Assembly (NCBI RefSeq): GCF_900111935.1
Contig: NZ_FOYN01000003.1
Span: forward strand, 1-64,000
DNA length: 64,000 nt
Direction of reading: 5' to 3'
Source: Halorubrum sodomense
GTDB taxonomy: Archaea > Halobacteriota > Halobacteria > Halobacteriales > Haloferacaceae
Part shown: piece by piece, positions 17,534 through 20,977 of the stretch
Position numbering within the stretch: the stretch's first letter is position 1
Layout: every line of letters starts with the position of its first letter
Notes under the pieces: model-generated
Seen by the model: only the letters and a program-made list of their open reading frames with translations
What the model was told of the DNA's origin: nothing
Database searches by the model: none
Made by a program: the position numbers and the translations under genes

Positions 17534-19236
<1,703 letters not shown>

Positions 19237-19259
19237 ATAGCAGTTTCCGACTCCGTCGT

Positions 19260-19740
19260 TCATTTATAAGCAACCGGCGGTAGCCGCTCCGAAGACGCCG
19301 CCAAATCCCGGCCACTCGCTTATAAATCGATGACTGCGGACCGACAGCGAACACCTCCAAAGCCCCAGCCGGGAGGCGGGCGCACGCTCGCTGTGCTCCT
19401 CAGTCGCTCGCTTCGCTCGCTCCTTGCGGTGCTTACGTCGTCATCAGAACGCTTCGCGTTCTGATTGGCTCACGAGAGCTTCGCTCTCGTGAACGCTTGC
19501 GCCCGCCTCCCGGCAGCGTGGCGCTACGCGCCACGGGCAACCGGCGGCGGAGCCGCCGGTGACTGCCCCTTTGAGTCCCGCCCCGCACAGCACCGCAACC
19601 GCGCCTCACGCCTCCCCAGCCTCGTCAGTCGCTTCCGCTTCGCTCCAGCGACTGACTCCCTCGCGCGTGCTCCTCGCGGCCGCCTCCGGCGGCCACTCGG
19701 AGGCACGCGCCGCCGCACCGCTCGGTTATAAATAACTCCC
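19260..19740. repeat. Structured intergenic element: nested hairpins between two TATA-like boxes
   Basis: This gene-free stretch of about 480 bases is packed with perfect stem-loops. An outer pair of 17-base arms (gccgggaggcgggcgca at 19368-19384; complement at 19498-19514) encloses two 10-bp hairpins with a ttc loop (19443-19465, 19470-19492). Downstream are hairpins with 8-bp (19517-19535), 9-bp (19540-19560), 9-bp (19625-19655) and 7-bp stems (19678-19694). Near-identical boxes ctcgcttataaat (19315) and ctcggttataaat (19721) flank it as 13-base direct repeats with one mismatch. No credible ORF lies inside. It could be a non-autonomous mobile repeat, or the template of a folded RNA driven by the first TATA box. 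It resembles repeats I associate with Halorubrum intergenic regions, from memory only. Confidence 0.75.
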
Positions 19741-19822: not shown

Positions 19823-20977
19823 ATGCTGGACGGGGTCAACGTCGCGCTCGGCGTCTCGGGGAGCATCGCGGCGGTGAAGGTCGTCGAACTTGCCCACGAA
19901 CTGCGCCGGTACGGCGCGAGCGTCCGCGCCGTCATGTCCCCGGCGGCGACGAACATCGTCCACCCGTGGGCGGTCGACTTCGCGACCGACGAGCCGACGG
20001 TCACCGAGATCACCGGGAGCGTGGAACACGTCGAGCTTTGCGGCCGCGAGGGGTGGGCCGACGTGCTCCTCTTGGCTCCGGCGACCGCGAACACCGCGGG
20101 GAAGGTCGCGGCCGCGGTCGACGACACGCCCGTGACGACCTGCGCGACGACGGCGCTGGGCGCGGACCTGCCGGTCGTGATGGCGCCCGCGATGCACGAG
20201 CCGATGTACGACCACCCGGGCGTCCTCGACGCGCTCGACTGCCTGGAGTCGTGGGGCGTCCGCTTCGCGGACCCCCGGATCGAGGAGGGGAAGGCGAAGA
20301 TAGCGGCCGAGGACGATATCGTGACGGAGGTCGCGCGAGCGACGACCCCGCAGAGCCTCGCCGGGACGCACGTCGTCGTCACCGCGGGCGCGACGAAGGA
20401 GCGGATCGACCCGATCCGTATCCTGACGAACCGCGCGTCGGGGAAGACCGGCCGGGCGGTCGCTCGGGCGCTCTACGTCCGCGGCGCGCGGGTGACGCTC
20501 GTCCACGACGGGCCCGACGTCCCGTACGCCGACGCGGTCGCCGTCGAGACGGCCGACGAGATGATCGACGCCTGCCGGCGGACGGCCGCGACCGCCGACG
20601 CGCTGATCTCGGCGGCCGCCATCTCGGATTTCACCGCGGACGCAGTCGACCAGAAGATCCGATCCGGGTCGCCGCTGTCGGTCGATCTCCGGCCGACGCC
20701 GAAGCTCATCGACTCGGTCCGCGAGGCGTACCCCGACCTCCCCATCGTCGGGTTCAAGGCCGAGACCTCGGGCGACGACGCGGCGATGGTGTCCGAGGCC
20801 GAGCGGATCCGCGACCGCGTCGGCCTCTCCTTCGTCGTCGCCAACGACGCGAGCGTGATGGGCGGCGACGAGACGCGCGCGCTCCTCGTCGGCCGGACCG
20901 ACCCCGACGAGTACGTCGGCGACAAGGACGGCCTCGGCGGGCGCGTGGCCGACGAACTCGCCGACGTACTCGGGTAA
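19823..20977 (+). CDS. coaBC: Bifunctional phosphopantothenoylcysteine decarboxylase / phosphopantothenate-cysteine ligase
   Basis: A 384-residue two-domain CoA enzyme. The N-terminal flavoprotein domain (CoaC, residues 1-175) starts with VNVALGVSGSIAAVKVVELA and contains PATANTAGKVAAAVDDTP and the substrate loop PAMHEPMYDHP. The C-terminal CoaB domain (185-384) has the nucleotide-binding start VVTAGATKERIDPIRILTNRASGKTG and the late block GFKAETSGDD, followed by VVANDASVMGGDE. It joins cysteine to 4-phosphopantothenate and decarboxylates the product. Together with the pantoate-beta-alanine ligase at 16693, it places two consecutive CoA steps in this region. Confidence 0.95.
   Translation: MLDGVNVALGVSGSIAAVKVVELAHELRRYGASVRAVMSPAATNIVHPWAVDFATDEPTVTEITGSVEHVELCGREGWADVLLLAPATANTAGKVAAAVDDTPVTTCATTALGADLPVVMAPAMHEPMYDHPGVLDALDCLESWGVRFADPRIEEGKAKIAAEDDIVTEVARATTPQSLAGTHVVVTAGATKERIDPIRILTNRASGKTGRAVARALYVRGARVTLVHDGPDVPYADAVAVETADEMIDACRRTAATADALISAAAISDFTADAVDQKIRSGSPLSVDLRPTPKLIDSVREAYPDLPIVGFKAETSGDDAAMVSEAERIRDRVGLSFVVANDASVMGGDETRALLVGRTDPDEYVGDKDGLGGRVADELADVLG

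Follow-up and report, generated by a model that had tools for sequence, protein, structure and literature searches.

In the 64,000-nt window (the whole stretch of DNA that was analysed), a gene-free, hairpin-rich element occupies 19257-19733, flanked by a gene that ends at 19236 and by coaBC, which starts at 19823. A codon-usage gene finder placed nothing between 19236 and 19823, and the mechanical ORFs in this interval are unsupported; this agrees with an earlier model-made description drawn from the letters alone (hereafter the sequence-only reading), which had called the region free of genes. The structure that it listed is also there: a couple of perfect 10-bp hairpins, each with a 3-nt loop, enclosed by the arm pair at 19443-19465 and 19470-19492, additional ones on the right-hand side at 19517-19535 (8 bp), 19540-19560 (9 bp), 19624-19656 and 19663-19710, and near-identical TATA-like flanking boxes CTCGCTTATAAAT and CTCGGTTATAAAT (12 of 13 positions). 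The enclosing arm pair is present and slightly longer than the 17 bases reported, comprising 20 nt on each side with 95% complementarity (19368-19387 and 19495-19514). Absent from that account were a second TATA unit at ~19257-19313, a structure on the purine strand at 19402-19424, where no Watson-Crick inverted repeat can be discerned by eye, and the family-wide nature of the element. The features are as follows, with the + strand referred to below as top and the - strand as bottom.

19257-19313, + strand: distal, degenerate 57-bp TATA unit, with TTATAA at 19264-19269
19314-19371, + strand: proximal TATA unit, ending in CCAAAGCCCCAGCCG; its TATAA starts 36 bp before CCAAAG
19358-19362, - strand: arm 1 of the basal helix P1 (CAAAG on the + strand), pairing with 19569-19573 with compensatory changes
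19368-19384, - strand: arm 1 of the variable stem P2 (the 17-base arm of the sequence-only reading), differing in sequence between copies with complementarity kept
19402-19424, - strand: GA-zipper hairpin, bottom strand 5' AG-GA-GC-GA-GC-(GAA)-GC-GA-GC-GA-CT
19425-19442, - strand: conserved internal segment (TGCGGTGCTTACGTCGTC on the + strand), its columns hardly vary among 52 sequences of about a dozen genera
19440-19495, no strand assigned: nested two-hairpin module (CAGAACGC/GCGTTCTG and CACGAGAGC/GCTCTCGTG), separately mobile
19498-19514, - strand: arm 2 of P2, complementary to arm 1
19515-19564, no strand assigned: a further two-hairpin module (GTGGCGC.. and ACCGGCGGC..), inserted at the foot of P2 in some copies and missing from others
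19565-19579, - strand: conserved box GCCCCTTTGAGTCCC, containing arm 2 of P1 (19569-19573)
19604-19624, - strand: conserved box CCTCACGCCTCCCCAGCCTCG, with related boxes in Halobaculum and Haloarcula
19624-19656, - strand: hairpin H3, 10 bp with a 13-nt loop, bottom-strand cap GGA-GC-GAA-GC-GGA
19663-19710, - strand: terminal stem H4, GCGCGTGC/GCACGCGC, with an inner hairpin at 19677-19693
19726-19733, + strand: right-hand TATA box, beyond the CACCGC end of the element

This element belongs to a high-copy family of intergenic repeats that occurs across the haloarchaeal class and preserves its fold through changes of sequence. When up to two mismatches are allowed, box GCCCCTTTGAGTCCC has 102 matches in the same genome (56 forward and 46 reverse) versus 2 for its reversed control, the core amounts to ~100 intergenic copies in 3.03 Mb, and BLASTN with the stretch returned at least 87 matches in this genome (40 of the 228 candidates scored). 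The sequence-only reading had associated similar stretches with Halorubrum intergenic regions, a link borne out by these copies and by those in 22 of the 22 congeners first searched; the family was found in all Halorubrum genomes searched. Among the matches listed for an exact 19-mer in genome contigs nearly all were Halorubrum and one was Halobellus, and no match was obtained in viral contigs (exact 17-mer) or phage records (blastn). The core composed of P1, P2 and the interior also occurs on plasmids of Halorussus, Halobaculum, Haloarcula, Haloprofundus, Halorientalis, Haloplanus, Halomarina, Natrinema and Halobacterium. A covariance model built from 52 cores detected it in 123 of 145 Halobacteria genomes, representing 50 of 58 genera, and in 0 of 53 non-halobacterial genomes of the phylum sample; as many as 115 copies were counted in one genome from another family. 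Rfam 15, searched at gathering and relaxed thresholds, gave nothing above threshold (best E 1.3, unrelated families), and no description of haloarchaeal REP-like repeats or of these sequence strings was found in the open-access literature searched. The family is apparently undescribed. The HF1-type intergenic repeats of haloviruses (PMC7230728), considered as a possible match, are AT-rich promoters and unrelated.

The anatomy of the family was deduced from 168 distinct copies collected for the analysis of spacing and 199 for the analysis of interiors. Read along the top strand, the 5' part begins with between one and four units in tandem, mostly 57 bp long and each with a TATA-like box, followed by P1 (CAAAG/CTTTG), a C-rich internal loop, P2 and the interior, and the 3' part consists of GCCCCTTTGAGTCCC, a linker, CCTCACGCCTCCCCAGCCTCG, H3, H4 and, in many copies, another TATA box. 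The core measures ~120 nt and the whole element about 300-480 nt; in Halorubrum the core is followed by a second module with two additional hairpins. The tandem upstream units are spaced at 57 bp in 78 of 107 cases, the rest being mostly 51, 54 or 60 (168 copies). TATAA lies 36 bp (or 33 or 39 bp) before CCAAAG in 86 of the 93 copies that have it, against a background of 3 of 596 for TATAA in 60-bp stretches, and at the other end it starts 7-10 bp past the CACCGC terminus in 71 of the 96 copies that have one there. The sequence-only reading had offered, as one of two options, a non-autonomous mobile repeat with flanking duplications; since the TATA boxes keep constant distances at the ends of the copies, they look like parts of the element rather than the duplication left by one insertion. 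The tandem-unit lengths (51, 54, 57, 60) mostly differ by multiples of three, with the bottom strand open in one frame, a pattern for which CGGCGG slippage could be an alternative source.

The stems covary very strongly. In the alignment of 52 sequences 95.8% of cells are paired versus 75.5% after shuffling and 34-49% after sliding, double-sided changes number 254 versus 67 in shuffled data, and the covariation score is 0.459 versus 0.120. P1 is CAAAG/CTTTG in Halorubrum and elsewhere GAAAG/CTTTC in 100 and GGAAG/CTTCC in 29 copies, while the P2 arms, ~13 bp and nearly perfect, are different in each copy. The sequence-only reading had counted a lone, unconserved and untranscribed copy with stems that do not covary as the outcome that would speak against it; the copy search in this and related genomes returned a multi-copy family, and with covariation this strong its view of a structured element stands. 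Covariation alone, however, is no proof of an RNA. The segment at 19425-19442 is conserved across haloarchaeal families.

The apical part of the interior was at one stage considered unpaired, a view dropped after the bottom strand was folded. On the top strand it appears as direct repeats CTCGCTTCGCTCG, and on the bottom strand as Watson-Crick dinucleotides alternating with blocks of tandem GA/GA mismatches, mostly capped by the GNA triloops GAA, GGA, GCA or GTA. GNA loops with GC closing pairs form exceptionally stable DNA mini-hairpins. The block score of this GA-zipper is 4.2 in Halorubrum (1.2 shuffled, 1.0 on the top strand) and 3.0 in other genera (1.0 shuffled, 0.95 on the top strand), and its Watson-Crick blocks covary among GC/GC, AC/GT, GG/CC, AG/CT and GT/AC. 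By analogy with known nucleic-acid structures, the GA pairs would be of the sheared type. Runs of CTCGCTTCGCTCG within these repeats can accordingly be read as GA-zipper hairpins of the opposite strand.

The wobble bias, the folding energy and the GA-zipper all suggest that it is the bottom, purine-rich strand that folds. Wobbles in P2, read on the top strand, comprise 39 A-C versus 13 G-T in Halorubrum (binomial p = 4e-4), 29 versus 8 in other genera (p = 8e-4) and 26 versus 11 when counted by unique context (p = 0.02). Because the copies share ancestry and exchange sequence, any p-value that treats them as independent is too small. Top-strand A-C pairs read as G-T on the bottom strand, so the bias marks the latter; since G-T is tolerated better than A-C in DNA and RNA alike, it fixes the strand and not the molecule. 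The bottom strand folds better than the top in 48 of 52 sequences, and for 19350-19715 folded as DNA the z-score versus dinucleotide shuffles is -9.4 for the bottom and -8.4 for the top strand, a stability of the element that 0 of 100 shuffles match. The other option of the sequence-only reading, a + strand RNA starting from the TATA box at 19320, fits the fixed distance of 36 bp between TATA and CCAAAG, which would put a start ~10 nt before P1. It is unsupported by these data and, in our judgement, hardly credible: the strand that it uses folds worse in those 48 sequences, lacks the GA-zipper and carries A-C rather than G-T wobbles, and several features described below favour a DNA hairpin.

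As to whether the bottom strand acts as DNA or as RNA, we favour DNA, although not decisively. A family of putative structured non-coding RNAs transcribed from the bottom strand, in which P1, P2 and the GA-zipper would be RNA helices and the conserved segment a binding site, would account for the strong covariation with compensatory pairs, for the strand-specific wobble bias and for the conserved unpaired residues that families have in common; tandem GA pairs and GNNA caps are known from RNA as well. A structured RNA would likewise show loop and box residues shared between families and a fold specific to one strand, which counts against the DNA reading. We nevertheless regard such an RNA as rather unlikely, though the most serious competitor. 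Wobble pairs are rare, at ~2% in P2 and <1% in H3/H4; the tRNA control for this value is weak, with 5 tRNAs qualifying and 4 G-T among 60 pairs. The triloops of nested hairpins are found as both reverse complements (TTC 47 and GAA 35, TCC 27 and GGA 24, TAC 18 and GTA 9), no GNRA is present among the GNNA tetraloop caps listed, the right-hand TATA is too near H4 for a full-length bottom-strand transcript, and there is no Rfam match. The interior is inverted as a block in 8 of 199 copies. The low wobble frequency, the two orientations of the loops, the inverted interiors and the lack of a gene-orientation bias (see below) together favour a hairpin acting at the DNA level, similar to those of REP or PATE elements. 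In eight copies (L027, L045, L129, L142, L150, L163, L170 and L250) the whole core interior is inverted with the orientation of the outer boxes kept.

Copies occur preferentially at convergent gene ends. Among the 175 copies with both neighbours called, 73 lie between convergent genes versus 105 of 645 ordinary gene pairs (OR 3.7, p = 1e-11), and divergent pairs are avoided. No preference is seen relative to co-directional flanking genes (>> 47 vs << 35, p = 0.22). Enrichment at convergent and depletion at divergent sites would suit a transcription-termination or 3' UTR stability element of the flanking mRNAs, yet the two gene orientations are about equally common while the structure is on one strand only, and no T-tract follows the hairpins; we consider this explanation highly improbable.

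Copies are gained and lost between species. The intergenic region of coaBC contains the element in this genome and in G007, G017, G006, G004 and G001, and other genomes lack it there. Of three further syntenic sites, G043 has all filled and G017 two, and G000, G007 and G039 have none; at one of the three, decayed remnants are left in G021 and G041. The same sites are thus filled in some species and empty in others, with boundaries blurred by divergence. No target-site duplication was recognised at the three syntenic sites, whose borders are unalignable, the best candidate for a clean empty site (L206 versus L051) held an extra gene besides, and the element ends show no convincing terminal inverted repeats. 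The mobile option of the sequence-only reading fits the gain and loss between species, but neither a target-site duplication nor a cognate transposase was found. Interiors are often quite different between copies at orthologous sites, which indicates exchange among copies or repeated insertion. A separate observation concerns the 3' module (the CTCCCCAGCCTCG box with its hairpins), which stands alone and in the opposite orientation upstream of coaBC at L061, L065 and L067, where the full element is absent.

Smaller modules are nested within the larger element. The two-hairpin module with hairpins at 19443-19492 occurs at 11 places in the genome, all of them at core elements, and is found alone within IS6-like transposase pseudogenes on plasmids of Natrinema and Haloferax. 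The carriers are transposase-like pseudogenes on plasmids of Natrinema zhouii (L207) and Haloferax mediterranei (pHME132, L208), and in a comparison of two such sequences one is uninterrupted (GGGCGTC|GCCGTCC) and the other has ~56 bp inserted. The second module (19515-19564) is present or absent among copies, in either orientation.

With respect to a transposase, no Y1 enzyme (PF01797) was found in this genome, whereas 5 of 14 control genomes were positive, and its 8 tnpB genes are not accompanied by a Y1 tnpA. An IS605/tnpB origin was tried and rejected, as none of the core, box and module motifs lies within 1.5 kb of any of the 8 tnpB genes. Membership in the PATE group is for these reasons not claimed, and the comparison is limited to a hairpin that works like those of REP or PATE elements. 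A selfish or neutral non-autonomous mobile element of the PATE or MITE type, devoid of host function and with stems kept only by hairpin-templated correction and gene conversion, would explain the high copy number with gain and loss between species, the inverted interiors, the TATA-like ends on both sides and the smaller nested modules, the last being comparable to Haloquadratum PATEs attacked by SMR-A (PMC3119063). We find it improbable: neither a clean empty site with a target-site duplication nor a matching transposase came to light, families share conserved unpaired segments, and in other genera the arms are unique to each copy, unlike those of recently spread elements.

Comparison with known systems yields partial likenesses. 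REP/BIME sequences likewise form intergenic hairpins in high copy number, located for the most part at 3' ends and in the gaps of convergent gene pairs and often as inverted pairs, the last an arrangement seen here in other haloarchaeal genera; the definition as a multi-copy extragenic imperfect palindrome applies to the ~100 intergenic copies. However, a REP unit is short (20-40 nt) with near-identical copies, whereas the core here is ~120 nt with copy-specific arms, and no REP-associated tyrosine transposase (RAYT/Y1) is encoded in this genome. The inverted arrangement consists of cores tail to tail ~25 bp apart in several other genera, with arms that differ between the halves; such pairs with unrelated stem arms were noted in G119, G045, G157 and G107 (loci L322, L333 and L317). 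In integron attC sites only the folded bottom strand matters, and conserved outer boxes surround a copy-specific stem. The present element likewise has a favoured bottom strand, conserved outer boxes and a copy-specific stem, but it is scattered singly in both orientations rather than arrayed with cassettes. It differs from a MITE in having no convincing terminal inverted repeats and no recognised target-site duplication. The PATEs of Haloquadratum (PMC3119063) share the non-coding nature, the lack of terminal inverted repeats, near-terminal palindromes and invasion by smaller repeats. Their palindromes match the ends of IS605-type transposons, unlike here, where 0 of 8 tnpB loci carry the element, and homogeneous PATE copies are >90% identical (PMC3119063), in contrast to copies of the haloarchaeal hairpin family. 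Like SMR-A of Haloquadratum (PMC3119063), the nested two-hairpin modules enter the palindromes of a larger repeat without an obvious target-site duplication, but SMR-A is ~110 bp with inverted terminal repeats and the module here is a ~56-bp double hairpin.

Our preferred reading, to which we give roughly even confidence, is that of a class-wide repeat whose bottom-strand hairpin most likely acts at the DNA level and is recognised by a protein. The family, its distribution, covariation, strand bias, preferred positions, gain and loss and nested modules are established by the data, whereas DNA as the acting molecule, recognition by a protein, repair of the arms and gene conversion are what we infer. 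Against this reading count the arms unique to each copy, for which simple proliferation gives no explanation, as well as the negative searches for a target-site duplication, for a Y1 transposase in this genome and for the element at the ends of its tnpB genes. The form under selection would be the folded bottom strand, comprising P1, a short internal loop, the long copy-specific P2, the conserved segment and the apical GA-zipper. In single-stranded or supercoiled DNA, notably between convergent genes, the bottom strand may fold into this very stable hairpin, which would be recognised by a DNA-binding or DNA-processing protein in a manner comparable to REP/BIME and IS605-type or PATE hairpins. 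Arm complementarity would be kept by selection and by hairpin-templated repair, interiors would be exchanged among copies through gene conversion, and small two-hairpin modules would insert into the loops. A more far-reaching version, in which the family constitutes a class-wide single-stranded DNA hairpin system with its own motif, the GA-zipper, recognised by a host protein and serving a chromosome-scale or transfer function, is put forward only tentatively and as rather unlikely.

With ~100 copies per genome in most Halobacteria, the family represents a large unexplained component of haloarchaeal intergenic DNA, and the covariance model now allows its annotation. It also provides a test case for distinguishing folded single-strand DNA from a very high-copy RNA in archaeal chromosomes. 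On several plasmids (L210, L253-L257 and L259) a single core lies ~0.5 kb upstream of an RPA/Ssb-like gene annotated as 'DNA-binding protein', where it could be a single-strand promoter or initiation site. The interval between this core and the gene is a long structured stretch that is similar in several of the plasmids, and most plasmids with a core near the RPA/Ssb-like gene are typed MPF_T.
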